From Nostoc sp. PCC 7524 (lineage in GTDB: Bacteria > Cyanobacteriota > Cyanobacteriia > Cyanobacteriales > Nostocaceae): a stretch of DNA of 64,000 nucleotides. Made by a program: the position numbers and the translations under genes. The DNA lies in the NCBI RefSeq assembly GCF_000316645.1, contig NC_019684.1, positions 124,001-188,000 of the forward strand, in the 5' to 3' direction. A model generated the notes under the pieces. The model had not been told where the DNA came from and ran no database searches. It saw only the letters and a program-made list of their open reading frames with translations. Shown in pieces: positions 20,321 through 52,025 of this stretch (positions are counted from its first letter, which is position 1; every line of letters begins with the position of its first letter).

Positions 20321-21608
20321 AAATGGCGTTCCCTCGATGCACTAATAAAGGTCATCGGGTAGCCGCTAGTCGGCATCAAGCCTCTGTGTATGTAAAAAAC
20401 TGCTGTTGTGCTTAAAAAATCCTGATTTTTCTTTGTTTGCGGTTCTTGAAAAAGTTAGCTTTATTCTCAAAATGAAAGTAGCACAAGGGTTTCAGACCCA
20501 AATTGCAGGTTTTTACATTTATCTCGGTTTAATGCCTAGTTGGTCAACAAGAGGCTTATAGCCTAGAATGAAATCAAATTTAAAAATCTAACTTTTCTTT
20601 TTGTTGGGGATAGCTCCCCCAGTTGCTGAGATGATTACCAGTCATCTCGCGGTCTTCATTCTTAGGCTTTCATTCTTAGGCTTTCATGCTTAGGCTATGA
20701 GTCTTTGTTGAAACCAAGCACCTAGCGGACTACCCAGCTTTTTTTTTGGAAGTTGCGGCACTCCCCTGACAAAAGTTGATTGAGTAAATCCGGCAATTTA
20801 ATCTTTAAATCCATACACAAAATTCCTTGGTAAATGCAGTCCTTGTACGCGAGGTACTTACTCTAGTCAGATGGGCTTTTTCAAGCCCACGGCTAAAGCT
20901 GTGGGGTTTCTCACGCTGTCACCCACATTGCCAAACACAGAGCATTTGGCAAGTACACAAAAAAGCGTGATTTACCCCCTCGGCAGACAGTCGTATAAGT
21001 AATATTGCAAGATCATGCCATATCCGCAAGAACAATGTTTGAAAACTGATCTATCTTCTCCGAAGAAAAAAACCCTTATTTAGCAAGGGTTATAGCGACA
21101 GTTCATCCGGGGATACTAGAGTTTTTATCCTGGGATACTAGAGTTTTTGTTCTAAAGCTCAAAGCTATACAGGGCAAAGCTTTGAAGCCAATTTTTTCAA
21201 CTTTTTTCTTTAGAACTAAATTTTTCCTAGAACTAAACTAGAACAAGGGGTAAGATCACCGAAGCTGACGTTTACCGCTACATAACGGCTAAAACCCTTG
21301 CTGTACATGGCGGCAAATTATTTCTTCACTATTTTTACGCCATCTAAGTTTCACAGCAAATTAAGGTATATTAAAGCTTTTGGAAGCCAATGCTGTTTAT
21401 CGTTCTTGCGAAGTAATGGCTCGTCTCTCTGTGCATCTATTATGGCGGTGCGAGTTGCATAGATAATCGAGCGACTTGGTTAATCCGATACACGACATTT
21501 ATCAAGCGAACTGAAGAGCAATAGTAGTTTTTCTTGAATAGCTGTATTAATTTAGCGATCGCAACTGGGAACACTAAATATAAGTGGTGATCGTTTCTAA
21601 CGGAACTT
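20321..21608. other. Gene-free, repeat-rich region; candidate replication origin or control region
   Basis: No credible gene lies in these 1.29 kb. Direct repeats: three 14-base units TTCATTCTTAGGCT at about 20655-20697, with an inverted relative (GCCTAGAATGAA) near 20561; and GGGATACTAGAGTTTTT twice, at 21110 and 21132. Hairpins: GAGATGA/TCATCTC at 20628-20648, GGGCTT/AAGCCC near 20873 with CCCACGGC/GCTGTGGG beside it (this pair resembles the right ends of cyanobacterial TnpB elements), and a terminator-like hairpin at 21071. Iteron-like repeats upstream of a primase gene fit an origin, but no DnaA-box cluster was recognised. Confidence 0.4.
21066..21092 (-). terminator. Rho-independent terminator on the minus strand with no gene before it
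   Basis: Read leftward, AACCCTT-GCTAAAT-AAGGGTT is followed directly by seven T, a textbook intrinsic terminator. No reading frame of note lies upstream on that strand between 21092 and 21608, which points to a small untranslated transcript. Confidence 0.55.
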
Positions 21609-22493
21609 ATGAATTTTTTTGAAGGCGATCAAAAAAATAGAATAGCTTATCTCATGAAACTTCTTCTGAGGATATTCTTGAAATTCCCAGGATGGGCAAA
21701 ATTTTTAACAATACTCATAATTTTTAGCTTCATTCTCCAAGCTATTCAGGGAGTACAAAATAAGTTTATAGAACTTACACAATCATCGACCTCAGTAGTT
21801 AACTCCCCTGCTTCTTCTCAAGTACCTCCACCTGCAACTGATCCATTTTCAGATGGGGTTAGTAAGGCCACCAATGCAGCGAAATTAGCTCAAACTGCAC
21901 GTTCTTTAAATGAGTGGAACAAAGTAGCAGGTGAATGGGAAGCAGCTATCAATTTTATGAAGGATGTATCACCCACACATCCAAACTATCAAGTAGCACA
22001 ACAAAGAATAGTAACTTATCCAAAGAACTTAGCCTATGCCAAGAAAAATGTTGAAAAGTTGAAACAACAAAAGTCAAAAATTCAGAAAGCCCAAGTAATT
22101 CGTGGTCAGCAGGTTTTTAAAAGTCTAAAGGGAATTTATCAAGTTAGAGGTGGATTAACTCCTTTACCTGTCGTCAGCGTCATTATTCCAAAAACTGGAT
22201 GGGATAAGCTCTCCAAAACCGATAAAGTTGGTCTAACTATGTATACGCAAAGCCTTATTTCACTGGTTAAATCTAACCCAGCTAAATATGTTGATATTTC
22301 TCCATCCGCCCCTGCATACAATCTTTTATTAAGTAAAACAGCTAATCTTTGCGAAGACTGTTGGTCAATTATTTTAAGTTATAAAGATAGTCAACCTTAT
22401 GGTGTTGATACAACTGTGGTTCAAGGGGATACTCCTTGGAAGCAGGAAGATCCATGTTGTCGTGGAGTTCAGTCATCTGAATTTCGTCAATAG
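21609..22493 (+). CDS. Hypothetical membrane-anchored protein
   Basis: I do not recognise this 294-residue protein. It has one hydrophobic segment near residues 32-50 (AKFLTILIIFSFILQAIQG) after a basic N-terminus, then a proline/serine linker, then a soluble domain with helical, lysine-rich coiled parts (residues about 80-160) resembling the repeat region found before peptidoglycan or lipid-binding domains in other cyanobacterial proteins. The C-terminal part has a CEDCWS and a CCRGVQ cysteine pair. It is presumably exported or periplasmic with an inner-membrane anchor. The 106-residue gene follows on the same strand. Confidence 0.6.
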   Translation: MNFFEGDQKNRIAYLMKLLLRIFLKFPGWAKFLTILIIFSFILQAIQGVQNKFIELTQSSTSVVNSPASSQVPPPATDPFSDGVSKATNAAKLAQTARSLNEWNKVAGEWEAAINFMKDVSPTHPNYQVAQQRIVTYPKNLAYAKKNVEKLKQQKSKIQKAQVIRGQQVFKSLKGIYQVRGGLTPLPVVSVIIPKTGWDKLSKTDKVGLTMYTQSLISLVKSNPAKYVDISPSAPAYNLLLSKTANLCEDCWSIILSYKDSQPYGVDTTVVQGDTPWKQEDPCCRGVQSSEFRQ

Positions 22494-22630
22494 CAAAATG
22501 AAAGCGTCCACACTTTTTACTTACTTATGTTTTATAAAGCTAGGGAATTTTCTAGTCAGAACCCTATTTTTAATAACAAAAAATAATAATTAGCGACTGT
22601 CCACAGTTTACATCTTTTGAGTAGTCAGAT

Positions 22631-22951
22631 ATGAAAGCTCGTGATTTTATTAAACCTGGTGAAAGTATCATTGTTATTTTTACCGATGGGACACTATTTG
22701 AACTTGGTAATGATAATACAGGTTTAACAGGAGATTGGAAAATTGATCCAAATCGTTCAGTTGATAGAGTCATTATTTATCAGCGTGAACATCCGATCAA
22801 TAGGTTATACATTGCCAATCATGCTGGAGTGGAATTTGTTGAAGAAAATCGGTATAAAATTCAACTAGCTCATGTTCAATATATAGGGGAAACTGACTTG
22901 AATTGGAATGAATTTGCTGAAGGGGGAGCAAATCCTATTCGGTATCTCTAG
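22631..22951 (+). CDS. Hypothetical small protein
   Basis: A 106-residue, acidic, soluble protein with no recognised domain. Alternating hydrophobic strands (SIIVIFTDGTLFEL, RVIIYQREHPINRLYIANHAG) suggest a small beta-rich fold. The EETDLNWNEF-like C-terminal region is acidic. It lies 137 bases downstream of the membrane-anchored gene, so co-transcription is possible. Confidence 0.5.
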   Translation: MKARDFIKPGESIIVIFTDGTLFELGNDNTGLTGDWKIDPNRSVDRVIIYQREHPINRLYIANHAGVEFVEENRYKIQLAHVQYIGETDLNWNEFAEGGANPIRYL

Positions 22952-23085
22952 AAGCGTTACCCTTAGCTGGAATTGGGGTTCAACTGCATTAACAATTTAT
23001 ATGGAGCATTCTTGTTAGCTTAATGTCGTGATCATCCTGAAGTTGATAGTCAGCTGGTGGTCAAGATTTTTTCAAGTATTAATAC

Positions 23086-24693
23086 CTAAATTTTGATATC
23101 TAAGAGGATACGGACAAAGGCGGCTTGTTGTAGGCTGAGGGGGCGATCGCCTCGTTCAACTAGTGAGATAAACTTTTGGGATACACCAAGAACGCTAGCC
23201 AGCTTTGTCTGTGGCCACCCTTTGGCAATACGCGCTTCCCTCACTTGGCTGCCAGTCAATTTAATGTCTTCTGGCGTTGTATCCTTCGCTTTAGGCTGTA
23301 ATTGTTGTACCTTTGGCTTAACTTTGGATGCTATTAGTTCAGGAATAGGATGTGGGGGTTTGATGGTCAGCTTGGCATCCAGTAGTTTTTTAAAGTAGCC
23401 TTTAGGCTTTTTCTGCGTGTATTCTGGTCTTAGCCATTCGGGGTATGTTTCTGGGTCAAACACAATTTGCCAGTCCAAATTAAGCAGATGCTTCAGAGCG
23501 TTATCCCAGCGCTGTTTTAGGTCGTAAGCTCTACGGAAGTCTGATAAAGCTTTATCTATTTCTGTTTTGGGCAATACAATTTCTATTAGCTCCTGTACCT
23601 TGTAGCTTCCATCAAGACGAACCCGACTATCCAATGTCAAATATATAGCCAACCTTAGCGTGAGTTCTTCATGATATGGGTCAATTTTTAAGACATTCTG
23701 GGCTAAGTAGCCAAACTGATATAAAGCTTCCCGCGATTCGGCTCCCGCTTTGTTTAAAAAGTATTTAGTCCAAGTACCAGGTTGAACAATTATCTGAACT
23801 TCATCAGGCTCTTCTATTTTTCCAGATGTATTTACCTGACCATATGGCACAATCGTGATGTTCCACATGCGACCAACAGGGGTACTAGCATTTATACCAC
23901 CTTTTCTATTTCTCCCTTCTATCCATACTGTTTTAACTAATAAACAATCCAATGCAAATGCGGTTTTTGCTATTTCTAAAAGTTTTTGACATTTAGGTAA
24001 ATCAGTTCGCTTATCCCAACCAATTTTTTCTATCAAATCACTGCCTTTTACAGTAAATAAACTCTCCCAAGGTTTTTCCTGCTCCATTGTATAGGCAGCC
24101 AATATTAAATGCAGCTTGGCACTAGTAAACCCAAATTTATCGATAATCTGTTGGGCTTCATTCCAAGGAAGTAATGTTATATCACCAGGGGTACTAATAT
24201 AATGCTCAATATAATTTTGGGGATTGCCTTTAGCTTTGTGTTGTGCAACTGCTATCCCTTCTTCATTTTTTTGCCACGACTCTTCTTTTTTGATTTGAGA
24301 GTTGATGCTTGAAAGCATAAGTGCTGCTGTAGGAATAGCCTCAAATGGCTGTGATTTAAATAATGAGTTTTGGTGGCTGTCTCTATAGCCTTGAAGATTG
24401 TTATTTACTATATTATAGGAATTTTGCAGATTATTTTCATCAATTTTATGTTTTCCTGAAACTATCGAAGAAATAGTTCGATACAATACTTCATTAAAAA
24501 TAGCTTCAAACAAGTCAGAATTATCTGTCGCCTCTGACGCTTCTGATGCAGATAATGTCTTTTCACCTTGTAAATGTTGCGGTAATTTATCGCTTATAAC
24601 TTGTCTAACATTATCTTGTATTTCCAGCAAAATAGAGGGACTTAGTTCATCTATATCATTAGGATTAACGGATTCAAAGCTATTTTGATTCAT
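23086..24693 (-). CDS. Rep-like plasmid protein with C-terminal HTH (XRE)
   Basis: A 535-residue protein of a type seen on Nostoc plasmids. The C-terminal 60 residues form a Cro/CI-type HTH (TGSQVREARIAKGWPQTKLASVLGVSQKFISLVERG). The middle (residues about 170-420) reads like a winged-helix replication initiator: GSDLIEKIGWDKR, then a long domain ending in a WDNALKHLLNLDW block. It probably binds plasmid DNA for replication or its control, but this is inference from fold-like pattern and context. A small same-strand ORF lies directly upstream. Confidence 0.5.
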   Translation of the reverse strand: MNQNSFESVNPNDIDELSPSILLEIQDNVRQVISDKLPQHLQGEKTLSASEASEATDNSDLFEAIFNEVLYRTISSIVSGKHKIDENNLQNSYNIVNNNLQGYRDSHQNSLFKSQPFEAIPTAALMLSSINSQIKKEESWQKNEEGIAVAQHKAKGNPQNYIEHYISTPGDITLLPWNEAQQIIDKFGFTSAKLHLILAAYTMEQEKPWESLFTVKGSDLIEKIGWDKRTDLPKCQKLLEIAKTAFALDCLLVKTVWIEGRNRKGGINASTPVGRMWNITIVPYGQVNTSGKIEEPDEVQIIVQPGTWTKYFLNKAGAESREALYQFGYLAQNVLKIDPYHEELTLRLAIYLTLDSRVRLDGSYKVQELIEIVLPKTEIDKALSDFRRAYDLKQRWDNALKHLLNLDWQIVFDPETYPEWLRPEYTQKKPKGYFKKLLDAKLTIKPPHPIPELIASKVKPKVQQLQPKAKDTTPEDIKLTGSQVREARIAKGWPQTKLASVLGVSQKFISLVERGDRPLSLQQAAFVRILLDIKI

Positions 24694-24704
24694 GAGATTA
24701 TCAT

Positions 24705-24890
24705 TTACAAAAAAGTGGCGAACATTTCTACCCGTTGTTTGAACGATAGTTGGCGCAATCGGGCAAACAGGTAGATATCAGCTTCGATGCTGGTGTCGGA
24801 TGCTTGGGGGCGGTAGTTCAGTTTTGCGTTCGCAAGGATGCGTCGGAGGCATTTTTCATAGCGACAACTCCTAGAAAATAATAAACCCAA
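24705..24890 (-). CDS. Small ORF or gene fragment (61 residues)
   Basis: The C-terminal part (NYRPQASDTSIEADIYLFARLRQLSFKQR) resembles the start of a small cyanobacterial protein family with S-I-E-A-D and L-R-x-L-S motifs. The N-terminal residues look less family-like, and the end may be truncated. It lies 11 bases before the Rep-like gene and could be co-transcribed. Confidence 0.35.
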   Translation of the reverse strand: MGLLFSRSCRYEKCLRRILANAKLNYRPQASDTSIEADIYLFARLRQLSFKQRVEMFATFL

Positions 24891-25352
24891 GCATCTAATT
24901 GAGCTAGATGTTTTTATTACCTAATATCAATTCTATGTGAGGCTGCGCTTTATTCACGTAGGGGCAATTCATGTAGCCGAAGGCTTCCCGTTCGCGCTAG
25001 CGTTGCGTAAAGCCTATGGCATAGCTACGCTTAGGGCGCAGCCTCTCGTAAAGAAGCAAAGGGTATTGCCCCAGAACCTATGTAGTTTTGGGTAAGTCCT
25101 ATAAACGCATCTTCACAAATAAATGGTATAACTTAAATCAAGTTCAAATTCTACTCAATTTATATACAAATTTTGTAGTAATTATACAAAGATGATTGTG
25201 AATTGAAAAATAATTAATAAGCCCTAGAGCAACAGTTGAGTTGAAAGTACATTTCTTTAGAGTTTGATTTGAGTGTCTCAATAACTCAACTTAGTGCTTT
25301 CATTTAATTCCTTTTCGCAGCCGTTGCTTCCAGTCAAAAAGCCTCACTACTC
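24891..25352. other. Gene-free stretch with a dispersed GC-rich repeat
   Basis: Bases 24956-25075 hold a GC-rich block (GGGGCAATTC ... GCCCCAGAACC) with inner GCTTCCCGTTCGCG and AAGCCTATGGCATAGC inverted pieces, typical of interspersed repeats in Nostoc. The rest is AT-rich and probably holds the HU gene's downstream region. Confidence 0.5.
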
Positions 25353-25604
25353 TTACGCCTTGTAAGTAGACGACCAGCCAAACAACTTACGCAACCGTTG
25401 AGAGGGATTGAATTTAAAAACCCAACTTTCTCGTTCTACTCTTACGTAAAAAGTTCCAAAGTTACGTAAAGAAACACTGTCTCCCTGTTTGAGGGATTCA
25501 TAAATTTCTTCAAGCGTTGCATCAATGACTTCTTCCACAATGCCAGTTTCTTTGCACACTCGTTGGGACACACGGCGTACCAGTTCTTTCTTGTCGATAG
25601 ACAT
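25353..25604 (-). CDS. HU/IHF family DNA-bending protein
   Basis: An 83-residue HU-family nucleoid protein: MSIDKKELVRRVSQRV helix, a second helix through EEIYESLKQGD, then SLRNFGTFYVRVERE and a short arm with the conserved FNPSQRLRKLFGW-like proline-containing loop. It is shorter than typical HU (90 residues) and less basic at the arm, so it is probably a plasmid-borne variant. Such proteins bend DNA for replication initiation or recombination. Confidence 0.85.
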   Translation of the reverse strand: MSIDKKELVRRVSQRVCKETGIVEEVIDATLEEIYESLKQGDSVSLRNFGTFYVRVERESWVFKFNPSQRLRKLFGWSSTYKA

Positions 25605-25746
25605 CTTTACACTAATTCACTTTTTACAATCACCAATAATGCTGATTAGATATTACAGCATAAGAACAAATTATCATTATTAGAGTTGTAAAAATAGATA
25701 AAATATTATTAATTATTTCCAATCAATTCACAATAAATAAAATTAA

Positions 25747-26625
25747 ATGACTCGATTTATTCATGACCAATTCGCCAAGGATTATCTGGAAGAATTACTA
25801 AAACCTTATGGAGAAGTACAAGCCCCCAGTCGTGTAGCAGGAGAAGTGCGAGAAATTGATGTTTTCTTTTCTCCAGCAGCACAACAAACTACCAATTTAG
25901 CGACATTAGGTTTATTAGGAAAGTTTGCGACCAATCCTGCTATCTTTGAGCCATTCCGCAATGCGGCATCTAAAGAAGAAATTTGTGATTGTCTGTTGAA
26001 ATTATTAGAAGTTAGGGGTGCATTACAACGAGAAGCTAATAAAAATAAAACCCTTATTCAAGAATTAGAAATTCCCAAATTATGGATTCTCACCCCCACA
26101 GCATCCGCGACGCTGCTGTCAGGGTTTCGTGCAGTTCAAGGGGAAGATTGGTTGCCTGGAGTACATTTCATGGCAGACTATTTACGTGCAGCCATTGTAG
26201 TCATCCATCAGTTACCACAAACTCCAGAAACACTATGGCTGAGAATCCTGGGTAGAGGAAGGGTACAAGAGCAGGCAATTAATGAGTTAAAAGCACTACC
26301 ATCAAATCATCCATTCCAGAAAGCGACGCTAGAATTAGTTTACAACCTGCGCCAGAATTTGAGAGTAAATCAAAATTTAGAAGAAGATGATAGGGAGTTA
26401 ATTATGCGGCTAAAACCACTGTATCAACAAGACCGAGAACAAGCCAAACTGGAAGGAGAACGTCTTGTTGTCGAAAACTTATTACAAGTTCGCTTTGGTT
26501 CATTAGATAAAGAATTAAGCGCAATTATTGAATTATTATTAGCCTTACCACCACAAGAATTTACGCCATTACTCATGCAATTGTCACGGGAGGAATTAAT
26601 TGCTAGATTTGGCAGACAATCTTGA
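25747..26625 (+). CDS. DUF4351-type protein with PD-(D/E)XK (Rpn-like) N-terminal domain
   Basis: A 292-residue protein. The first 60 residues (MTRFIHDQFAKDYLEELL, REIDVFFSP) look like the Rpn/transposase-31 nuclease-like domain, with the acidic residue in REIDVFF; the second catalytic element is not clear. The C-terminal 60 residues match DUF4351 (RFGSLDKELSAIIELLLALPPQEFTPLLMQLSREELIARFG). Proteins of this kind are abundant in cyanobacteria and are linked to recombination or mobile DNA. An in-frame GC-rich patch near 26096-26130 derives from a dispersed repeat. Confidence 0.75.
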   Translation: MTRFIHDQFAKDYLEELLKPYGEVQAPSRVAGEVREIDVFFSPAAQQTTNLATLGLLGKFATNPAIFEPFRNAASKEEICDCLLKLLEVRGALQREANKNKTLIQELEIPKLWILTPTASATLLSGFRAVQGEDWLPGVHFMADYLRAAIVVIHQLPQTPETLWLRILGRGRVQEQAINELKALPSNHPFQKATLELVYNLRQNLRVNQNLEEDDRELIMRLKPLYQQDREQAKLEGERLVVENLLQVRFGSLDKELSAIIELLLALPPQEFTPLLMQLSREELIARFGRQS

Positions 26626-26628
26626 TAT

Positions 26629-27129
26629 TTATTCGCCGAGATTTTCCAGAGCCGAGGCTTGGTGCATAATTTGCACTTTCAATGAATCTGCCGCAACTGC
26701 TGCTATAGTTTCCCAATCTTCTTGTGTCAGCATTACAAGAATTAGTTCGCGTAGCACCTGTCGGTTGGAAATAAACTCTTCGCCATAAAGTTCATCCCTC
26801 TGTAAAATAGCCTCGATGCGTTCTCGTACTTGAGGGGTGGGCATTCTCAACTTTTGGAGCAGGCGCTCCCGTGCTGTAGAAGTTGCAACAGAAGTCGCAG
26901 TTCCCAAATTCCAATCGTTGAGTAGCGATCGCACTTCCCGGTTAAGCGAAACCCGTAAAGTAGTTAGGCGACTAAACAATCCGGGGTTGAGCATTAGTTG
27001 ACCGATGGCAGAACCCCAGTCTAAACCAGCACTGATGTTACCTCCTACCGCATCCTCAGCTTCGATACCCAAAAGCAACGATTCTTCATCAAACAGCAAA
27101 TCCATCGGACTGGCAAATTGTTCGCTCAT
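26629..27129 (-). CDS. Hypothetical protein (166 residues)
   Basis: I do not recognise the family. The protein is acidic and soluble, with a likely helical C-terminal part (RERIEAILQRDELYGEEFISNRQVLRELILVML). It converges with the DUF4351 gene, with stops three bases apart. The GC content resembles chromosomal genes more than its AT-rich neighbours do. Confidence 0.55.
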   Translation of the reverse strand: MSEQFASPMDLLFDEESLLLGIEAEDAVGGNISAGLDWGSAIGQLMLNPGLFSRLTTLRVSLNREVRSLLNDWNLGTATSVATSTARERLLQKLRMPTPQVRERIEAILQRDELYGEEFISNRQVLRELILVMLTQEDWETIAAVAADSLKVQIMHQASALENLGE

Positions 27130-27218
27130 GAACTTACTCTGCTATTGCGTTATCTTGACCTCGAATTAGCCGAACTTCCAATCGCACTTTTTATTCCAAC
27201 TAAGGCAATTTAACAAGT

Positions 27219-27261
27219 ATTTATTAAAATAAAATACCTGGTTGATATATTTCAACCAGGT
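27219..27261 (-). terminator. Rho-independent terminator of the hsp20 gene
   Basis: ACCTGGTTG (27236-27244) and CAACCAGGT (27253-27261) form a nine-pair stem. On the minus strand it is followed by a T-rich run (27219-27235), 50 bases past the small heat-shock gene. Confidence 0.8.
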
Positions 27262-27311
27262 TTAACATCATGTCACACTATTAGTTGAATACTTGCTTAC
27301 TAATATCAACT

Positions 27312-27746
27312 CTATGCCGCACCTTCCCCAAGGTTAATTTTGACGACTTTATTTTTTTCTTGCTCGGTTTTAGGTAGAGTCAAATTCAAAATCCCGTCTT
27401 TATATTCTGCCTTGACGTTGGTATTTTGAATGCGAGCAGTCAGGGGAATTACTCGTTGGAACTTGCCGTAGTAAAATTCACTTCTTGTTTTACCATTATT
27501 GTCGGTTTTAGTTTCAGATTTACGTTCGGCAACCACCTTAACTGCATTCTCGGTGACTTCGATATCTACATCCTTAGCCTCGATTCCAGGCAGTTCCAGC
27601 TTCAGGTGTATGGCTTCTTCGGTTTCGTGGAGTTCGGCTGCTATAGCTCTAGCCAAAGTGGGTGCTGGGAAATCTTCAAATAAGGAGTCGATTTGACGTT
27701 GCAGTGCGTTCAATTCTTGCCAGGGGTTGTAGCGTACTAATACCAT
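27312..27746 (-). CDS. hspA: Small heat-shock protein (Hsp20/alpha-crystallin)
   Basis: A 144-residue holdase chaperone. The ATG at 27746 (MVLVRYNPW) is chosen because GGAGAG lies six bases upstream; a longer start at 27758 adds four unlikely residues. The alpha-crystallin domain spans about residues 40-135, with LKLELPGIEAKDVDIEVTE and the closing GVLTLTLPK-like KDGILNLTLPKTE. The N-terminal NPWQELNALQRQIDSLFEDF is typical of cyanobacterial HspA. It protects proteins or membranes under stress. No CIRCE element was seen upstream. Confidence 0.94.
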   Translation of the reverse strand: MVLVRYNPWQELNALQRQIDSLFEDFPAPTLARAIAAELHETEEAIHLKLELPGIEAKDVDIEVTENAVKVVAERKSETKTDNNGKTRSEFYYGKFQRVIPLTARIQNTNVKAEYKDGILNLTLPKTEQEKNKVVKINLGEGAA

Positions 27747-27758
27747 AACTCTCTCCAA

Positions 27759-28439
27759 TTTGTAATTTTTTATTTACTTACTTCAGGATTTATCATTGCT
27801 TTGATTATTAGAATATGGCGAAATACAATGACTGAAAATACGGTTAATCTCACTTTTTAAATTCAGGATTACCGCACCAAAATTTTGACTGAATAAAAGG
27901 TAGGAAGAATACGAATTTATTAGGTACGGTTTTCCCGAAAATGTCTAGATCAAAAAGTGGGGTGATGCAGGCAGCGTGAAGCGCGATCGCCTAAAGACAA
28001 CTGGTACGTTGTAAACTTAAAATCCCACAAAGGTACGAAGATTTATCACAACTGTCGTCTACTCAATATCGATATACCTCCAAATCTGAGACAATATCAG
28101 TACAATCCCACAACTATGTCCAACAATTGAGAATTTTCTCAATAACTAGCTGGCAGTATTAATTATTTTGGATGAGAAGACAATAGAGAATTTGATCAAG
28201 TGCGACGATGCTCCGCCCCGTCTTAAGAGCGATGGCATAACCGCCCGCCGTAGGCGATCGCTTCTTCCCCTTCAAACTAAAAATTGACCTCTTCTACGCC
28301 CAAAACGTCACCTTGCAACGCTTTCATTTTGTCGATATATAACAATCCTGTAGAAATCAGATACAATTAATACTCAGTATATTTCTCTCATCCACCAAAT
28401 CTTCTACAATCAGCTGGTCGATATCGAAATTGATATCAA
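27759..28439. other. Stretch upstream of hspA with a possible gene remnant
   Basis: The right side of the hspA gene (27759-27990) is AT-rich and probably regulatory. Bases 27992-28131 hold an open frame without start codon, described separately. Bases 28200-28262 are a GC-rich dispersed repeat with a GCGATCGC site. No whole gene is visible. Confidence 0.4.
27992..28131 (+). pseudogene. Possible 3' remnant of a protein gene
   Basis: One frame reads KDNWYVVNLKSHKGTKIYHN, then an I-D-I-P-P-N-L-R block, and ends at TGA at about 28131. It has no start codon and a stop lies a few codons upstream. The composition looks protein-like, so it may be the tail of a lost gene. The family is not recognised. 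Confidence 0.25.
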
Positions 28440-28994
28440 ATGGCTGAACAAAAGTCCCCACCCAGCGAGATGATCCGCGTGCCTGTCCCACTAATTGGGA
28501 TAGTTCGGCAACTATCCAAGCTACATCGGCAGGGGCATACAATTGCCTTGCTGCAAGCATTAGAGGAGTTAGTAGCAAGATTTGATAGCAATATTGATAT
28601 CGATTTAGCTGGCAGCAAACAAGTTTTACAATTGCAGGAGAAGTTGGAGGAATTGGAGTCCCATCTTGCTGATAGAGATAAGTCGGTGGAAACCAAGCTC
28701 GAAGCAATGACCAAAAAACTGGAGTTAATCGAACGGGCTATTTTATCAACTCGATACAACAGTCAACCTAAACAAAGAAGACAATCATACCCATACCAAC
28801 AAACACAAGTTGAATTACAACCCAGGACAAACGAAAGTCTTGCCCCAAGACTTGGTGTTACCCCCCAAAGCTTAATTGCAGAAAGAGAAAAACTCAGTAC
28901 CAAAGAATTTCTTAGCTATACACGTAACCGCGATCCAATGAGCGTGGGTTGGGAATGGAATCCTTCGGACGGACTATACCACCCTCACAAGTGA
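28440..28994 (+). CDS. Cyanobacterial plasmid-type protein with coiled coil
   Basis: A 184-residue protein. The N-terminus (MIRVPVPLIGIVRQLSKLHRQGHT) resembles a common element in Nostoc plasmid proteins. Residues about 60-100 form a coiled coil (KLEELESHLADRDKSVETKLEAMTKKLELIERA). The C-terminus ends WNPSDGLYHPH. A role in plasmid maintenance is plausible but not shown. It converges with the helicase gene; an imperfect hairpin near 28990-29019 separates the stops. Confidence 0.6.
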   Translation: MAEQKSPPSEMIRVPVPLIGIVRQLSKLHRQGHTIALLQALEELVARFDSNIDIDLAGSKQVLQLQEKLEELESHLADRDKSVETKLEAMTKKLELIERAILSTRYNSQPKQRRQSYPYQQTQVELQPRTNESLAPRLGVTPQSLIAEREKLSTKEFLSYTRNRDPMSVGWEWNPSDGLYHPHK

Positions 28995-29035: not shown

Positions 29036-32000
29036 TTATTGACGTGACAAAATCAGATTGAGAAGATTTAGGGAGCGAGAGTTAAGAAAGTAATTTGCTT
29101 TAAACAAACTACGACGAATTTGTGTCAAATCGTAACTTTTAAAAATTACCCAAGGAAAATCAGGGTAGCCATTACCAATAGGAAGAAAATCATTAGCAGG
29201 GTATAAAGCTTTAATATAACGCTCTAGTAAAATACGAAAATCATAACTCATAGGAGAATTTGCATCTCCTATGAATGAGGATTGAAGAATTTTATCCTTT
29301 AACAAAAAATGTAGGGGAATAGCTAAGTACTGATCGCTAAAATTACTAGAGTCGCTTATTTGCTGAGTGTTACCCTCATTTTGGAGCAGGTGTTCTATAA
29401 AATCAATGGCAAACAAAATTTCATTTTTGATATTTTCTGAATAATCACCTTGACTGATATTTTTTAGTGCATTCCTAAAGTTTGTTGTTATGGAAGAGCG
29501 AATTTGAGAATAAGGATCTATACTGTACCGTGATGTTACAGTGTGATTATTCATTGGGATAATCAATAATGAACCGTCCATGTAAACCTGTGGACTAATT
29601 TCTATTTCTAACAATTCAGCCATACAGGAACATTGGTCAAATAAAAAATCCACTCCTAGCTCCGATAAAGACAGCAAGCTAATTTTTTTTCTAGCTGGTT
29701 GCTGGACAACAGAAGAATTGGATATGCGAGGAGGTTGAATTAGAAACTCGGATGACTTAAATAAAGTAAACAGATTTTCAAAAACAAGTTTAATATCCTG
29801 GTCATCTGGATGTAGCCGCAGGTGACTTCGTAGTAACTGCATCAAAGATTTAATCCGAGTGCTGAAAGTCTCACCGCTTGAATATATCGCTTTACCACCA
29901 ACGGGAATCATGGCTACGTTGCGTCCACCTAAATTCCCAGCACCCAAAATTCGCGTCATTATCGCCGCCCGTAAGACGAGTAGAGAACCTATTAAATTCG
30001 CGGCGCAGGTACTTTTACTTTGTTGATTATTAGGTGCATTTGTAAAAACTTTTTCAATAATGTAAACTGTTATTTTCTTATGAGCGCGGTCATTATTTTG
30101 TCCCTCACCAAACTCACCTCTACCTCGATAAATTACCTGAATTATCTCCATCAGGTTATTTTCTATCTGAAATCTTGGTAGTTCAACAATTATATGTTTA
30201 GCAAGGGGAAAAGAAATACCGCGAGCCGCAGATGATGTCATAAACACTACCCGTACCTCATTCTTGCGTTTGAGCAGCATTTCCAGATCAGCTACTTGGG
30301 AATGTATCTCTAGATAAGTCTCATTTTTATCGAAGCCAGAAAGTCTCTTTTTGACTAGAGAAATTAATTGTCTTAGACGTTGTTTATCCTGGATATAAAC
30401 AATTAATTGTCCTAATTCTGGGTGATTAACATAGTGGATTATTTCGTTTATTAAAGACTCATCTCGTGCTGATTGACCAGGTGTAAATTTAATGGAACCA
30501 TCATCGTTGATTTTGTTCACTTCAAAAAACACTTGGTAAGTTAGCTCAATTTGTTTAGCTGGATATGAGTTAACATTAATAACAGCAGAATCAACATTAG
30601 CTGGCAGTGCAGAATAACCGCCAAAAGACAGATAACTAACTTCTAATGGTTCTTGCTTTTTATCAACAAAAGAACAATAGATTTTATCTGGTTCCGCTTC
30701 CTTTGTACCGAGATGTGGTTTAACAACATCAAGACCTGTAAGAGAAGCATCAGCAATAATCAACTTTGTATTAAAACCGTATGAAGGGTCAAATAACTCA
30801 AGTTTTTTTCCTAACCATTTCTTCATAGAGTGAAACCACTCAACTCCAGCATTGTCACCTGTTACTTCGTCAATCATGACAATGATATGCTTCAGGCGTG
30901 AAGATAATTCACTCATTAACTCCGGAATTACATCACCATTATTTGTAACTGAACGAAATAGTCTCTCGAAATTATCTAATGAGTCACCTCCACTATTCAA
31001 TTTGCGGAGGGATTGAGTTGAGCAGGTAATGACAATTTTATTTTTTTGCTGTTTGATGAGAATATGACCTGCGTCACATAAACTTCTAATAACTCCGGTT
31101 CCGGATTTGTTGTTGTAGCCGAGTGAAGAGCGGGACTGACGATTTATTAAATTCTTTCGGTTGGGGTTCCGTTTTTTATCATATTCTGCACCATGAAAAG
31201 TTACCCCTAAGCTTTCAAAAGTTTGATTATTGCCATTAGAATAATATCTCACTGTAGGCTGTTTATTATTGGCATTAATCAGAGCGTAATTCGTGGAAAT
31301 ACAATACAGGTCATCAGCGAACAAATTACCTGTTTTTTTATCTATAAATTTATTAATCGTGTCTTCGTTTACAGAGAGACGCGGACTAATGTAGAAAAAC
31401 AGGAAACCCTCATCAGCATGTTCGCGGATAAAATTCACCACCGCCGTTGTTTTACCAATACCCGGATTCCCGGTTAGAAACAGATTACGATAATTACCTG
31501 ACAGATGTTCCTGAATTATTTTTGCGTGGGCATTTATTAAAGAAATTTGCTCAGTTAGATGGTATTTTTCACTGATTGAAGTATCTAAAAAATCTGAAGG
31601 ATTATTAAAATTTGTAAGTGTTTCACTGAAACACACAGTTTTATCTTTTGTAACATTAGTATCACATAATGAGTCCACAAATTGGTGGACTTTTTGTTCA
31701 TGAGAAAGTTTATGTGGCTGAGCTCTTTCTATTAATTCTTCTTTTCCCGAAATTCCTACTTGTTCAAGCGAACGTGAAAGGCAATATACAGCATTTTTTT
31801 TTATTAAATTAAGCATCTTAAACAGCGCATTTTCATAAGTATTGATCGAATTTTCTCTATCCGACTTTTGCCGTCCCTTCATCGATTTATATGCCTCGGC
31901 GCAAAGGTCAAGAATGTGAAAGTCCTCCCGGCTAACATTTAAGGTGCTAATTCCTCGTGTAGTGTAACCTATTGTTGTCACTTGTACGGTCGCATCCTTG

Positions 32001-32899
32001 GGTATTCTATTTTCTGAATCAAGAAATTTGACGAAACTTGCTGAGTATGATGCTGCCTGTACCAACTTAACAAAATCTTTGTCGTAATAAGAAAAAGCTG
32101 TAAGATAATCCTGAATATATTGCCCTATTAATTGCTGATTAGTCCCTTTTTGGGTGTCAATTTTTAATTTATGATAAACACTTTTGGACATTAAATAACG
32201 CAGTTCTGCTTTTAAATATCCAAGAATAGACGAAGCACTTGATAAATTCCACAACTCAAACTGTTCTTGTTCATGCCTTGAATCATCATTATCTTGCTGA
32301 GAATTAAATTCATTATCCTGATTACTCTCTACAGTAAAGGCAGACAAATCAACACAGACAATGTAATATTCCTTGTTTTTTTCTCCGTCTTTCGACATCA
32401 GCATCAATGTATCCGCTTTTAAAAATTCTCCTGTCTCGGCATACTTATTTATATAAGGTGTAACCTTATCTGCGGTAATATCAAACTGCGAAAGAATCTG
32501 AGAATATCGGTCATGTTGATGTTTTTCTAGCGTTCTCATGCTGGCTTCATCTGAGAGGCAGCATTGCATATATAGTAGTTCCCAGTTTCTATTAGAAGCA
32601 GACGAAAACTCCAAAGAGTCCATCAATTCCTTCCATAAACCTAAACCACCAAGATGACCTCGTAAGAGTAAAAATTTACCCCATGCTGCCCATATTCTTT
32701 GACTCTCCGCATCAATAAATCCTTCTAACAGTTTCATCTCAACAAGTTTATTGACTACTCCTCGATGATTGATACGTTTCAGGTCATCAATGAATAAATC
32801 CATGTGGGCATATTTCATCCCTGATTGATGAATTGCTGTCAATATTCCTGCGTTGAATGCTAACTCGAAAAGATGTCCCTGAGCTTCTCTTATTTTCAT
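29036..32899 (-). CDS. Large SF2-type helicase/ATPase with unknown N-terminal domain
   Basis: A 1287-residue protein. Residues about 470-950 are a superfamily 2 helicase-like motor: Walker A GNPGIGKTT (near 476), Walker B/DE motif VMIDEVTGD (near 675), a motif III-like IIADASLT, motif V TSSAARGIS (near 891) and motif VI QVIYRGRGEF (near 923). The N-terminal region has the spacing KADTLM ... YIVCVDLSAF (about residues 160-190), reminiscent of a PD-(D/E)XK nuclease whose last lysine is lost; this is weak. The C-terminal third is unrecognised. It lies 91 bases after the 1167-residue gene on the same strand, so the two form an operon. I do not recognise this pair as a named defence system. Confidence 0.75.
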   Translation of the reverse strand: MKIREAQGHLFELAFNAGILTAIHQSGMKYAHMDLFIDDLKRINHRGVVNKLVEMKLLEGFIDAESQRIWAAWGKFLLLRGHLGGLGLWKELMDSLEFSSASNRNWELLYMQCCLSDEASMRTLEKHQHDRYSQILSQFDITADKVTPYINKYAETGEFLKADTLMLMSKDGEKNKEYYIVCVDLSAFTVESNQDNEFNSQQDNDDSRHEQEQFELWNLSSASSILGYLKAELRYLMSKSVYHKLKIDTQKGTNQQLIGQYIQDYLTAFSYYDKDFVKLVQAASYSASFVKFLDSENRIPKDATVQVTTIGYTTRGISTLNVSREDFHILDLCAEAYKSMKGRQKSDRENSINTYENALFKMLNLIKKNAVYCLSRSLEQVGISGKEELIERAQPHKLSHEQKVHQFVDSLCDTNVTKDKTVCFSETLTNFNNPSDFLDTSISEKYHLTEQISLINAHAKIIQEHLSGNYRNLFLTGNPGIGKTTAVVNFIREHADEGFLFFYISPRLSVNEDTINKFIDKKTGNLFADDLYCISTNYALINANNKQPTVRYYSNGNNQTFESLGVTFHGAEYDKKRNPNRKNLINRQSRSSLGYNNKSGTGVIRSLCDAGHILIKQQKNKIVITCSTQSLRKLNSGGDSLDNFERLFRSVTNNGDVIPELMSELSSRLKHIIVMIDEVTGDNAGVEWFHSMKKWLGKKLELFDPSYGFNTKLIIADASLTGLDVVKPHLGTKEAEPDKIYCSFVDKKQEPLEVSYLSFGGYSALPANVDSAVINVNSYPAKQIELTYQVFFEVNKINDDGSIKFTPGQSARDESLINEIIHYVNHPELGQLIVYIQDKQRLRQLISLVKKRLSGFDKNETYLEIHSQVADLEMLLKRKNEVRVVFMTSSAARGISFPLAKHIIVELPRFQIENNLMEIIQVIYRGRGEFGEGQNNDRAHKKITVYIIEKVFTNAPNNQQSKSTCAANLIGSLLVLRAAIMTRILGAGNLGGRNVAMIPVGGKAIYSSGETFSTRIKSLMQLLRSHLRLHPDDQDIKLVFENLFTLFKSSEFLIQPPRISNSSVVQQPARKKISLLSLSELGVDFLFDQCSCMAELLEIEISPQVYMDGSLLIIPMNNHTVTSRYSIDPYSQIRSSITTNFRNALKNISQGDYSENIKNEILFAIDFIEHLLQNEGNTQQISDSSNFSDQYLAIPLHFLLKDKILQSSFIGDANSPMSYDFRILLERYIKALYPANDFLPIGNGYPDFPWVIFKSYDLTQIRRSLFKANYFLNSRSLNLLNLILSRQ

Positions 32900-32990
32900 T
32901 TTATTATAATAATTTATTCAGCTTAAAAACAATAATTTGCTGAGATAATCAAGGTTTATATAAATCAAAATTATGTGTGTTATGGTTCAC

Positions 32991-35900
32991 TTAAAATTGA
33001 ATTTCGACATTACCGTTTTCAATCTCCCAATGCTTATTTTCTAGTATCAGGCAAATTCGTTCTTGCAAAATTGGGTGGTTGTAGTGTCTCACTAAGAAAT
33101 TATTATAATCTCTAGGGAGTTCTGTCGATGGGTCTTCTATTTCGTGTTTATCTAAAAAATCCTCAATCTCTTGAAGAAAGGCAAGTAGGGTTTGAGATGA
33201 ATTGGCAGAATCATTAATCACATCTTTTACATCTCTTGAGTCACTTAAGGCATTGTTAACTTCTGTCAACCATGCGAGATAATTCATTTGCACCCCAGGA
33301 ATGCAATGCTTACCTCTTGCCGATGATCTGCCGATTGCATTATCGCCAATTATATCGTTAAGTGGGTCAAGCTTAGGTAACAATTTTTCTGACTTGCTTT
33401 GTTTCTTTTCGTATCTTGAATAATGCAATAGTGTCAAATAAAACGTAATATCATTTTTTAATTGACCTTCCTTAATTAGACCATTCATAACCTTCGTCAT
33501 GTCGAGTGCATCACCTGGATGAGCATTCAAAAGTGTTGAATAAGTCGTTGCAGTGTTATAGAAAGTCCTATCTTTCTCTATGGTCTTTACTGTAAGCAAA
33601 TTAAAAAATATTACCTGGGAGCGATTGGGGTCATTAAATAAGTTACTTAGTTGTCGTACATCCTGAATATATAAGGTTTCTTCTTGAGTTTTATCGTCGA
33701 TGCACAAGGCACTGTAACTGTCATATAAAGCAGGATATATTATTAGATCATCTGCAATATTCTTGAGGAACTTTATTATATCCGGTGACATAAAAAATAA
33801 TTCATTTTGTTGGTCTGTCACTCGCAATTGTTCGGAAAAGGGAGTTTTAGCGATGTATAAAACATCCTTAAAACCCTTATGGTACATCTCATTAATTACA
33901 TCTCGAAGCACCCACGGAGTGCGATGCAATTCATCTACCCAGTAATTGCCTGCTAAAGTTTTAACTCGATTTATCTTTATACCAGTTTCGGTGTCCTCCA
34001 CCGCTACTATTTCACCTGTCAAATTCGCAATATAATTATCTTCCCAACGCGACGAACGCGCATCGCACTTGTTACTAGACACCATTACTATTAATAATTT
34101 TTTGAGTATCCGTTTATCGTTATTTTTGCTATGGTATTTCTGTGGTAATAAAGAGTACAGTGATTTCTTCGCATTAGGAATTTTAAAACGGTCAATTTTC
34201 GGTAACACTATCCCTTGAGAATTGATGAACATAAAGTCACTTAATAAATGATTCCATTCTTCAACCATTTGATGAATTAGTGCTTCCTGTTGTGTTGTTT
34301 CTTCTTCCGGTGTTTCATGCAGTATCCACTGGCCTACAAATAAACTTTTGTTTTTTTTCACCCTACTAGTGAGAAGTTCTAGGATTATAAATCCAAGGGT
34401 CTTTAATGTAAGCTCGTATTTGAAACGCCCTTCAACCGTAGCTTTTTCTAAAGAAACCTCCCCTATTTGAAACTCTATAATTGAGCCATAAAATACAACA
34501 CTGCTGAGGAAATCACTAGCTTCGTCAGCATTGTTAAGTGTATTAACTTTCTTCAGAAAATCAGGTTTTTTACCTAATAATTGTGCTAGCTGTTTTATAT
34601 TTTTTTTATCGCGTTCAAACTGTTGTGCATTATTAGATTGTACAAACTTATAGAAGACAGAGAGCATTTGTATATCGTCAGTTTGATAAGCCATATCAAA
34701 CTCACATTTTTTTGTTGCTCGATAGAAATTATCTGTCTCAAATTTCAGCTTTACTGGTAGCTGGATAATTGCTTCTTTTGTTACCCCCTGTTGGGAAATA
34801 AAGATATGCTTGAGACATTGTTTTAAATTACCTGAAGAAAGTTCTTCTCCAAAAAATCTATCTGTACTACTTATTTCTGTTAATTCAGAAACCAGTAATT
34901 TCTTTGATATCCCAATACTTACTTGTTTCTCATCAGATAATAAAATTTGTTTTAAATATTTTTGGATAAGTTTTACTATTGCTTTTAGGTTGTGTGAAAC
35001 CAAATCTTGATTAATATTACTAACAAACTCCGCCAAAAAGTTTTGTTTATGTGCATCACTCTGATTATCTGGGTTACTGAAAATAGGCAATACTTTGTCT
35101 GTGAAATCTTTAATTACATCAAATTGGATAACATCTTGATAAGAAGAATTTACTTCTGAAGGATTAGGACACGCAAATGCAAAATAATAAAGAATAAAAT
35201 ATTTAATTATTTTTTCAACCTGCCAATCTGTTTTTTGCGGGGGGTTTTCATCAATTTGTTGATTATTTAATTTTGAATTTGGGTTAATTATGTCAAGTCC
35301 GTAAGCGAATGAAGTACCGTATTTAACTGGATTATTGACGCGCCCATTGAATTTAAATTTTAATCCAAAAGTTATTGACGTTATACCTAGACGTGGGTCA
35401 TCTGTCTGCCCAATACAACCATTAATTTGCCCAATGATAGGCAATTCCGAAAAAGCATCCCTACGAGAAAATAATTCTTTAATATTTACAGTCACACCCT
35501 GATATACTACATCGTAATAACCATCAGCTTTCTTCGGGTCATTGATGAATTTTTCTAATAATCTAATGCGTCTACTGTAGTCTCTCAAATAAAATGATGC
35601 CTCATGGGATGATATTTGACGTGAATTTTCTCCTTTACCATCCTTATATATGACTTCTCTGTTTTTACTTAAATCGTTACATTCTTCACCAATCACTTCT
35701 GCCCAAAACTCTAAAAAATTTATCTCCGCTTCTCTTTTTAATCTTCCGATTGTTTCTTGATTAATTAATTTTTCAAGTAATGATAATTCCTGAGAACCAT
35801 GAATCTTGATAGACTCCAGATTAGTTCTTACATTGCCAATTACATAATCAGATATATCTGACTCATCATTCATCTTCAGACGAACATAGTTTTCTAGTGC

Positions 35901-36494
35901 CGTTAATACAAGTTCGCGGAATCTAGTTGCACTATTTATTTCTATGGTGACTTTGTGGTTTATAATCGCAGGATTATCAAACTCAGACTCCAAGGCTAGT
36001 TCTTGGCTACTTAATCCAGGCGATTGGGGGAAATCCCAGGTAAATAAGGAAGAGTCTTGAGGTTTTTTTGCCAAGGGAGTAAGCATTGAATCAATTAATT
36101 GCTCAATGATATTATCTGCGATTTGTGCATTGGAATTTAAACCTGTGCTATTCTTAATTTCATCTATTAAAAGTTTGGATAAAGTCGCTTTTATTGATTT
36201 AATTTTGTCTTTGAATACCTCACGACAAGCATCGGTCATATTTATTGTCGCTCGATATGCTTTTTCGTCTTTTGACAACGGTAATCTTATATCTTTAGCT
36301 TTAGCTATCTGGTAAGCAAAGGCATGAATATCAATGATTAACCTTAATCTCTCGTTATTAGAGTCTTTTTTTAAAGAAAATATTTTTCCTCCTGACTCTC
36401 CATTCAATTCTTCATCTATTTTTGAGAGCAAATCTCTATAATCTGGTCGCGGTAGTTGATTTCTTTCTTCCCTTAACTGATTCTGATTCTCCAC
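32991..36494 (-). CDS. Giant protein of unknown function, partner of the helicase
   Basis: A 1167-residue protein with GTG start at 36494 (MENQNQLREE) and AGGGG about 10 bases upstream. There is no signal peptide or membrane span. The first 300 residues are mostly helical. The last 380 residues look alpha/beta: a hydrophobic strand LLIVMVSSNKCD (near 805), LTGEIVAV, then VLRDVINEMYHKGFKDVLYIAK (near 870-885) and ATTYSTLLN (near 985). That order loosely recalls the RNase H-like PIWI core, but I cannot show homology. The downstream helicase is in the same operon. The pair is AT-rich relative to the chromosome. Confidence 0.7.
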   Translation of the reverse strand: MENQNQLREERNQLPRPDYRDLLSKIDEELNGESGGKIFSLKKDSNNERLRLIIDIHAFAYQIAKAKDIRLPLSKDEKAYRATINMTDACREVFKDKIKSIKATLSKLLIDEIKNSTGLNSNAQIADNIIEQLIDSMLTPLAKKPQDSSLFTWDFPQSPGLSSQELALESEFDNPAIINHKVTIEINSATRFRELVLTALENYVRLKMNDESDISDYVIGNVRTNLESIKIHGSQELSLLEKLINQETIGRLKREAEINFLEFWAEVIGEECNDLSKNREVIYKDGKGENSRQISSHEASFYLRDYSRRIRLLEKFINDPKKADGYYDVVYQGVTVNIKELFSRRDAFSELPIIGQINGCIGQTDDPRLGITSITFGLKFKFNGRVNNPVKYGTSFAYGLDIINPNSKLNNQQIDENPPQKTDWQVEKIIKYFILYYFAFACPNPSEVNSSYQDVIQFDVIKDFTDKVLPIFSNPDNQSDAHKQNFLAEFVSNINQDLVSHNLKAIVKLIQKYLKQILLSDEKQVSIGISKKLLVSELTEISSTDRFFGEELSSGNLKQCLKHIFISQQGVTKEAIIQLPVKLKFETDNFYRATKKCEFDMAYQTDDIQMLSVFYKFVQSNNAQQFERDKKNIKQLAQLLGKKPDFLKKVNTLNNADEASDFLSSVVFYGSIIEFQIGEVSLEKATVEGRFKYELTLKTLGFIILELLTSRVKKNKSLFVGQWILHETPEEETTQQEALIHQMVEEWNHLLSDFMFINSQGIVLPKIDRFKIPNAKKSLYSLLPQKYHSKNNDKRILKKLLIVMVSSNKCDARSSRWEDNYIANLTGEIVAVEDTETGIKINRVKTLAGNYWVDELHRTPWVLRDVINEMYHKGFKDVLYIAKTPFSEQLRVTDQQNELFFMSPDIIKFLKNIADDLIIYPALYDSYSALCIDDKTQEETLYIQDVRQLSNLFNDPNRSQVIFFNLLTVKTIEKDRTFYNTATTYSTLLNAHPGDALDMTKVMNGLIKEGQLKNDITFYLTLLHYSRYEKKQSKSEKLLPKLDPLNDIIGDNAIGRSSARGKHCIPGVQMNYLAWLTEVNNALSDSRDVKDVINDSANSSQTLLAFLQEIEDFLDKHEIEDPSTELPRDYNNFLVRHYNHPILQERICLILENKHWEIENGNVEIQF

Positions 36495-36884
36495 TCTATG
36501 TCGCCCCTTTTTTAGTTAAGTGAAACCGGGTTGTGTGTTGCTTACTTTCCCATGATTGGCTCAATATAATACAACTACTATTGCTAAAAATTCCCTTTAT
36601 ATTCACAAAAGTAGACCATTCTCAGGGACAGTACCGGGGTTGAAAATTTTAAGCAAAAACGAACAACATCATACTCAAACACTTCAACATCGGTATTCTT
36701 CGTGTCCATCACCCCCAATTTTTCTTACTTCCCTACCCAGTCAAATAAACAAAATTCATATTAACTAAAAAACAAAAAGCTAAAAAGCTAGTTTTATCTT
36801 TTTAGCTTTTTATAAAGCCCGGTGTAGATACTGTGTCAACTGTGTCATAATCAAAGTTCATCTAGAGAGTGGTGCTGCTTAACC
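36495..36884. other. Gene-free stretch between the large operon and the HEAT-repeat gene
   Basis: It holds the operon's presumed promoter region (36495-36600) and the terminator of the HEAT-repeat gene (36774-36811). An ORF at 36556-36768 has no protein-like features and is not called. Confidence 0.5.
36774..36811 (-). terminator. Terminator of the HEAT-repeat gene
   Basis: AAAAAGCTAAAAAG (36774-36787) pairs perfectly with CTTTTTAGCTTTTT (36798-36811). On the minus strand the stem is followed by GTTTTTTAG. It shares the AAAAAGCTAA motif with the repeats before parA. Confidence 0.75.
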
Positions 36885-49801: not shown

Positions 49802-50164
49802 GAATCTACTTGAATATTGCTAAGTATACTGAGAAAGAAACCTTTGTATAGCAAGCTTATAGTTACCTTGGTTTTTCCCAAATCAAATAGGAGTTTTCTA
49901 GAACTGGACTATATATTTAAACAATCCTCAATGCTAATTTTTAATCTCAAAAAATAAAGTCAAAAAACCCATTATTATCCGGAAATAGATGTGATTTTCC
50001 ATTAAATTAAAATCCTAAATTCAGTAATTTTAATTTCTATTTAAAACAGCCTTAATGCCACAATTTGAAACTATTTTTTAATTAAATTGATTTAAAATTT
50101 ACCGTATATATGGGCTTTAGTGGTATGATTTTAAAATCAGTAAAATTGGTGCTATTTATTAAGA
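49802..50164. other. AT-rich gene-free stretch
   Basis: It lies between the relaxase and the DUF6932 gene and is strongly AT-rich, with TTTTAATTT-type runs. It probably holds the promoter of the DUF6932 pair; no clear terminator is seen. Confidence 0.5.
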
Positions 50165-51123: not shown

Positions 51124-51146
51124 ATATTGAAGCAACTCCACACCTG

Positions 51147-51929: not shown

Positions 51930-52025
51930 TTTACAAGCTCGCTTGACTGCACCTTTATTCTAGAACTTGGCGGCTCATTTCATCCCTGAACTTTTTGTTT
52001 CAAGCTTTTCAATCGCTTCATTCTA

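Follow-up and report, generated by a model that had tools for sequence, protein, structure and literature searches.

The 64,000-nucleotide (nt) stretch of DNA analyzed here (the window: positions 124,001 to 188,000 of contig NC_019684.1 of Nostoc sp. PCC 7524) contains two very large adjacent genes, designated A and B, which probably represent a new pairing of an Argonaute-fold protein with a helicase, immune in role as judged from genomic context. An earlier reading of the bare DNA (the sequence-only reading) had described two giant open reading frames (ORFs) of 1167 and 1287 amino acids (aa), separated by 91 bases on the same strand of a plasmid-like segment, and the coordinates agree. Homologues of both are present in the protein database at E≤1e-3 (398 proteins for B and 19 for A), so this is not a chance pair of ORFs. 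The genes and the segments that carry them are as follows:

32991..36494, reverse strand: gene A, 1167-aa Argonaute-like ORF with a GTG start, first of the pair
29036..32899, reverse strand: gene B, 1287-aa superfamily 2 (SF2) helicase with an N-terminal nuclease-like domain, second of the pair
32900..32990, reverse strand: 91-base A-B spacer, from the coordinates
29045..36633, no strand assigned: transferable A+B cassette, 96.4% identical to Nostoc plasmid pNPM2 (blastn)
18159..28987, no strand assigned: left part of the plasmid backbone, adjoining the cassette, in pieces 88-99% identical to the 46.8-kb plasmid of Tolypothrix PCC 7601
46832..51970, no strand assigned: right part of the plasmid backbone (MobC, relaxase), 96-98% identical to the same Tolypothrix plasmid

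Gene B encodes an SF2 helicase with Walker A, a DExx motif II, motifs III, V, and VI, and two RecA-like domains. The Walker A, DE, V, and VI motifs had been picked out in the sequence-only reading, and the 16 helicase positions that were checked are invariant in all 26 aligned sequences. The motifs, together with two N-terminal elements, are located at:

31445..31471, reverse strand: Walker A, GNPGIGKTT, residues 477-485
30854..30877, reverse strand: Walker B (motif II), MIDEVTGD, residues 675-682 (DE at 677-678)
30743..30751, reverse strand: motif III-like DAS, residues 717-719, found in 26/26 sequences
30206..30244, reverse strand: motif V, residues 886-898
30116..30139, reverse strand: motif VI, QVIYRGRG, residues 921-928
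32336..32431, reverse strand: residues 157-188, hairpin with G157, D163, [DE]184, and S186, degenerate PD-(D/E)XK-like
32045..32080, reverse strand: residues 274-285, DKxxxKLxQAxSY, a QxxxY motif on a helix

The N-terminus of B had earlier been likened to a nuclease from the spacing KADTLM...VCVDLS, a stretch that is indeed present at residues 161-186. It coincides with a modeled pair of strands (164-170 and 177-186) in which G157 and D163 are invariant (26/26) and residue 184 is D in 14 sequences and E in 12, and a modeled helix (274-295) carries K274, K278, Q281, and Y285, again without exception in 26 sequences. This arrangement resembles that of the RecB-like PD-(D/E)XK nucleases (D...[DE]xK with QxxxY). 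Motif and topology thus favor the nuclease likeness, but the usual lysine is missing: position 186 is serine in 15 sequences, threonine in one, and an alignment gap in the remaining ten. In the VIA structure comparison, the rows for B were taken up by helicases (residues 367-1156), and the N-terminal domain was barely tested there. After residue 1000 the alignment of B sequences contains no acidic or lysine column conserved at 90% or more, and no cysteine column reaches 90% in the 26 sequences, i.e., there is no DinG-type iron-sulfur (Fe-S) cluster. In Pfam, the window's B gives partial P-loop matches and a Helicase_C match below the cut-off. An nSTAND3 identity was rejected, as the score (27.3 vs. 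a cut-off of 27.2 bits) covers just 52 residues at the P-loop and relatives of B pass the Helicase_C cut-off; a cyanobacterial plasmid replication helicase (CyRepA) was considered and dropped for want of an NCBIfam match. One relative of B shows a PADLOC mad8 match (1e-4) over the P-loop region.

The protein encoded by gene A was modeled with AlphaFold2 (mean predicted local distance difference test score 84.1, predicted TM-score 0.80). All 11 Foldseek matches to this model at E≤0.001 are Argonaute or PIWI proteins, and VIA returned Argonaute/PIWI in all 50 rows among the matches listed, with fold matches reaching residue about 1081. On the predicted structure, A belongs to the Argonaute superfamily by fold, with an N/L-MID-PIWI arrangement, and the PIWI/RNase H-like C-terminus that the sequence-only reading had glimpsed is borne out by a confident model and by fold search. 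In the model the order of strands (E) and helices (H) in the PIWI-like domain is E799-812, E822-834, E839-852, H861-872, E877-883, H904-911, E918-931. The relevant parts of the gene are:

34125..34436, reverse strand: MID-like part, about residues 687-790, placed by secondary structure and by its location directly ahead of the PIWI-like domain
34212..34217, reverse strand: codons of Q760-G761 (MID "QG"), from invariance in alignments
33246..34100, reverse strand: PIWI/RNase H-like domain, about residues 799-1083, from strand/helix order and fold matches

Profile libraries do not recognize A. Scans of the window's protein against Pfam, NCBIfam (E≤1), and PADLOC (E≤10) gave no family match, the Piwi profile PF02171 matches neither A nor anything else in the Nostoc sp. 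PCC 7524 genome, and the 17 PADLOC models for prokaryotic Argonautes (pAgo) or PIWI proteins that match the pAgo of another cyanobacterial genome (G030; G and L numbers are our handles for genomes and loci) match none of the scanned A members. No PADLOC model matches the window's B either, and the earlier impression that the pair corresponds to no named system is supported. The family of A escapes all three, and prokaryotic Argonautes are usually found by the Piwi profile. Weak partial matches of A relatives (DUF2267, 0.008; ZorA2, 0.0018; LeoA, 0.075) were taken as chance.

The two genes travel together. Profile searches of 292 cyanobacterial genomes at E≤0.001 detected A in 45 genomes (profile A6) and B in 46 (profile A7). 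After exclusion of seven genomes with weak or decayed matches (A in G051, G143, G188, and G277; B in G051, G165, G217, and G223, plus some second fragments), A is present in 41, B in 42, and both in 41 of the 292 (Fisher p 2e-49), the sole B-only genome having a 129-residue remnant. Among 46 places where A occurs in these genomes, B lies downstream on the same strand within 300 nt in 36 and within 5 kb in 41; of the remaining five, three have B on another contig (G131, G155, and one piece of G207), one has it 7.5 kb away (G187), and one is itself a truncated copy that overlaps (G262). The named loci are the best 78 among 151 confirmed relatives; 65 of them have B after A in the same orientation, no more than 5.7 kb away. 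Among the other 13, eight run out of sequence within 0.8 kb past A, and B is rarely missing where there is room for it: five loci have at least 3.7 kb without B, one of them with a 29-residue B stub. A third lineage, found via distant B matches, comprises plasmid loci of Cupriavidus and Acinetobacter as well as loci in ten genomes of cyanobacteria, with an A homologue immediately upstream of B at 13/13 loci; its A sequences match the lineage I/II profile at E-values from 4e-27 to 6e-3 (hidden Markov model search), and profile-profile comparison with the Acinetobacter alignment gives E 9e-8. The evolutionary distances of A and B correlate at 0.935 over 58 lineage II loci (permuted maximum 0.152), partly because the hosts share ancestry. 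Genomes G030 and G051 hold remnants of A and B together. It is very likely that A and B form one functional unit.

Some loci depart from the simple arrangement. A truncated B alone is found on a Stanieria plasmid, and a plasmid of Acetobacter persici (L227:7874-11997) has an intact A followed by B as two overlapping ORFs, which may reflect either genuine splitting or gene decay. Tandem A-B-A arrays, with a second A after B, occur at L060, L068, L072, and L080, and a short repeated ORF-like sequence lies between A and B at L050, L052, and L061 (Okeania and a Microcoleaceae genome).

The pair is carried by mobile DNA. The window segment encodes ParA, an integrase, MobC, and a relaxase, as the sequence-only reading's term "plasmid-like" implied, and matches the 46.8-kb Tolypothrix plasmid in pieces; located within a 6.6-Mb contig, it is an integrated relative of that plasmid. 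In the Tolypothrix plasmid the backbone match also ends at window position 28987, and the genes past this breakpoint encode an integrase, an 855-aa protein, two unmatched proteins, DruE (E 2e-232), and then ParA; as DruE is the sole strong Druantia match, we call this operon Druantia-like. Blastn shows no collinearity between the right-hand ends of these inserts, and we therefore describe the site as a variable region common to both and not as an established clean swap. On pNPM2, a plasmid of a lichen Nostoc, the 96.4% match is confined to the A+B block and excludes the flanks; DISARM genes (drmA, a methyltransferase, and drmD) lie about 9 kb to one side of the pair, and a DncV-like CD-NTase, E2, and Mov34 gene set, which we read as CBASS, about 10.5 kb to the other. 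On Trichormus plasmid C, DrmD (2174 bits) is encoded by the third gene past B, 8.5 kb on. Defense genes are thus associated with the pair or its sites at several places, including the purQ site described below. Each of the six plasmid records in which A has a match was typed conjugative, and such carriage raises the possibility that the pair removes rival plasmids to favor its own carrier and not to protect the cell. The location of the window's pair on an integrated relative of a plasmid with relaxase and MobC would suit this explanation, as would the plasmid targets of ApsAB (PMC11096173) and DdmDE (PMC12409362); many copies, however, adjoin ordinary chromosomal genes, and we consider this account not very likely.

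One recurrent chromosomal position of the pair follows purQ (named by a GATase_5 match), which is present in the fetched flank of 19 of the 78 named loci and 7 of 15 fetched unnamed loci, ending about 0.15-1.1 kb before A (17 loci). A second recurrent neighborhood was seen in Oscillatoriales, over part of the loci. The pair is evidently able to stay at one chromosomal site, and we therefore retain genome maintenance as a competing explanation: A and B would clear R-loops, stalled forks, or catenanes from the cell's own DNA, and the defense neighbors would be incidental. Argonautes from cyanobacteria reportedly help E. coli to divide when topoisomerases are inhibited (PMC10269773). The sequence-only reading would have yielded to a clear match to a described system or a housekeeping operon, or to absence of the second gene beside homologues of the first; no clear profile match emerged and B is seldom absent beside A, but the purQ flanks are partly housekeeping-like. 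We compared the purQ site in 12 Nostocaceae genomes that lack the lineage II pair (L207-L218), among them the window's own genome, where purQ is at:

G000:C2:61063-61731: purQ of Nostoc sp. PCC 7524

The interval after purQ is variable in Nostocaceae, being occupied by the A-B pair or by HSDR_N-like, TIR-NLR, or pAgo genes (HSDR_N-like in the window's own genome). At this site, one of the 12 genomes has a TIR-NLR gene (PADLOC E 3e-197) and seven have a protein of 640-670 aa whose start weakly matches HSDR_N_2; one of these seven, G030, has a class II pAgo as well (PADLOC 1094 bits; Piwi E 5e-15). Members of the 640-670-aa family are L211:5989-7974 and homologues in L208, L210, L212, and L214-L216; this family could in its turn have an immune function that has escaped recognition. 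Clear immune genes are therefore found at 2/12 sites and possible ones at 7/12. These contents, together with the carriage of the pair on conjugative plasmids and its patchy spread (41/292 genomes, and none in four listed same-genus genomes, G019, G024, G042, and G191), speak against genome maintenance, which we regard as unlikely. The site also has its cost for an immune reading: the purQ counts suggest stable chromosomal residence and a possible cell function, the clear immune genes are few, four of the 12 genomes have no recognised immune gene next to purQ, and the HSDR_N_2 matches of the three scanned proteins (E 2.7e-5, 0.0045, and 7.7e-4) are all under the curated cut-off, the other four proteins being 51-76% identical to one of the three. 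The one member scanned against PADLOC gave no match.

Whether A could bind a guide was judged from its MID-like and PIWI-like parts. Q760-G761 is invariant in 28/28 sequences from three lineages (alignment A6), and the Q of the MID 5'-end motif of canonical pAgos (Y/H-K-Q-K) is kept in 69/69 sequences of alignment A3 (the window's lineage plus lineage II). The Y-x3-K that would be expected before QG is found in none of the 69 and in 4 of the 28, being absent from 24; the four are Acinetobacter-type sequences (L127, L128, P0146, P0147), in which it stands 16 residues before the invariant QG and completes a full MID-type motif that is not present in the cyanobacterial members. At the expected first and third acidic positions of the slicer site (the DEDX catalytic tetrad of canonical pAgos), placed by secondary-structure reading rather than residue-level superposition, A has S/A/V/N and S/T (806-807) and T/A/S/H (884), with an acidic residue in 0/28. 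Near-conserved acids do lie by the slicer region (D811 in 22/28 and D925 in 27/28), so the loss of slicing is not certain. The altered pocket and the slicer positions would also fit a structural Argonaute relative that no longer binds guides, as may be the case for Med13, and that is only a scaffold for B: Mediator kinase-module chains stand at ranks 15-16 of the Foldseek matches, and the putative nucleic-acid interface of Med13 is described as strongly diverged (PMC12477606). We find this improbable, as a kept binding pocket is the easier explanation of a QG that survives in all 28 very divergent sequences and of the Y-x3-K of the Acinetobacter type.

Three described systems resemble the pair, and we think that it works in a similar way. 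In DdmDE, an inactive DNA-guided Argonaute recruits a helicase with a C-terminal nuclease and plasmids are removed (PMC12409362). Both share two genes in defense regions, an Argonaute-like protein (here probably without a slicer), and an SF2 helicase with a nuclease (here nuclease-like); the union of helicase and inactive Argonaute-like protein in one operon is matched by a conserved pair whose operon and inactivity are presumed. DdmD differs in that its PD-(D/E)XK domain is C-terminal, while the nuclease-like residues of B are N-terminal, with serine for the usual lysine, and no such C-terminal domain is present in B. No chain named DdmE or DdmD appeared when the A and B profiles were searched against the PDB sequence set, in which the presence of such chains was not checked.

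ApsAB consists of an SF2 helicase with a C-terminal PD-(D/E)XK nuclease and an Argonaute-like protein bearing Y[X]3K...QG...K, and it acts on plasmids and showed no activity against eight phages tested (PMC11096173). The A-B pair has the same two kinds of protein and the QG of the MID-like motif (28/28), and the four Acinetobacter-type sequences alone add Y[X]3K before it, in contrast to the 0/69 of the window's lineage and lineage II. ApsA has Walker A at 218, DELH, QAVGRVER, and a C-terminal D...DVK; B has Walker A at 477, DE[VI]TGD, QVIYRGRG, and the N-terminal degenerate motif, and lacks the C-terminal D...DVK. The Argonaute-like gene comes first here, whereas apsB homologues were sought downstream of apsA in PMC11096173. 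Because the Acinetobacter-type branch keeps the MID motif of ApsB, a distant tie to ApsAB is possible. According to PMC11096173, systems like ApsAB also occur in cyanobacteria and in beta- and gamma-proteobacteria, and the cyanobacterial relatives listed there may or may not include the A-B family, which we set apart from ApsAB and DdmDE by their descriptions. Both of these nearest working analogues act on plasmids, and the anti-phage activity suggested by the sequence-only reading is here a candidate role.

The pPIWI-RE loci, ordered restriction endonuclease, DinG helicase, and pPIWI-RE (PMC3702460), likewise combine a PIWI-fold protein, an SF2 helicase, and a restriction-endonuclease fold. 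They have three genes; the present locus has two, with the Argonaute-like gene first and with B devoid of DinG-type Fe-S cysteines, and the separate endonuclease and Fe-S helicase genes are lacking. RNaseH_pPIWI_RE (PF13032) has no match in the window's genome and is found in 8/292 cyanobacterial genomes. Canonical pAgos (PF02171) share the overall fold of the A model and differ in that A has no Piwi match. At least one tested defining feature is missing for each system (the C-terminal nuclease, or PF13032 and the gene set), and the pair was therefore not filed as a member of any. No paper on it appeared among the listed results of searches of an open-licence full-text library, a scope that leaves aside subscription papers and outside preprints.

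We propose, with somewhat better than even confidence, that A and B act together as an immune system of two components, directed at DNA that invades the cell (plasmids and perhaps phages). The proposal builds on the two genes themselves, the helicase motifs of B, the modeled fold of A, the pairing and co-divergence of the two, the near-identity of the cassette on another plasmid, and the sites shared with immune genes. A would be a long, divergent Argonaute-fold protein, probably without a working slicer site, whose MID and PIWI lobes may bind a short nucleic-acid guide or hybrid. On recognizing a target, A would recruit or release B, an SF2 translocase/helicase that would unwind the target and run along it. 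The RecB-like domain at the N-terminus of B may then make the cut; should it be inactive, host nucleases would attack the DNA once it is unwound. Several results pull the other way. The whole-chain TM-scores of A are low (normalized by query length, 0.14-0.21 over the top 18 Foldseek rows), and A gave no profile-profile match to cyanobacterial pAgo or pPIWI-RE, a comparison that is uninformative in that its pAgo-vs.-pPIWI-RE positive control was also negative. The N-terminal profile of B found no PDB sequence match, the domain not having been searched as a separate fold. No relatives of A or B were found in viral contigs, or of B, the only one of the two searched for, in phage records.

The pair may even be the founding members of a new and ancient class of Argonaute immunity, with a long slicer-less Argonaute, an altered MID pocket, and a helicase carrying a permuted N-terminal RecB-like nuclease, a reading that we hold tentatively, at a little under even chances. 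It would then be the commonest Argonaute-fold system of the sampled cyanobacteria: the A-B pair occurs in 41 of the 292 genomes, more than Piwi-domain proteins (PF02171, 25) or pPIWI-RE (8), a rough ranking as the search sensitivities differ. If guided, A would offer a new kind of guide pocket joined to a helicase effector. The two exchange sites, purQ in Nostocaceae and the plasmid slot, are places to seek unknown cyanobacterial immune systems.

Other features of the window were recorded. A HEAT-repeat protein (36885-37685) is encoded immediately upstream of A, in the same orientation and beyond the cassette common to pNPM2. A 535-aa protein (23086-24693) has a C-terminal helix-turn-helix and weakly matches CTD7, an ABC-three-component C-terminal domain. 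Two TnpB-type genes of the IS605 family are found at 10413-11786 and 41650-42921. A recombinase trio (three-integrase element) is present in two copies, at 12269-15950 and 52739-55931, the second without about 490 bases; genome-wide there are four copies, near 100% identical, two of them with the ~490-base deletion.

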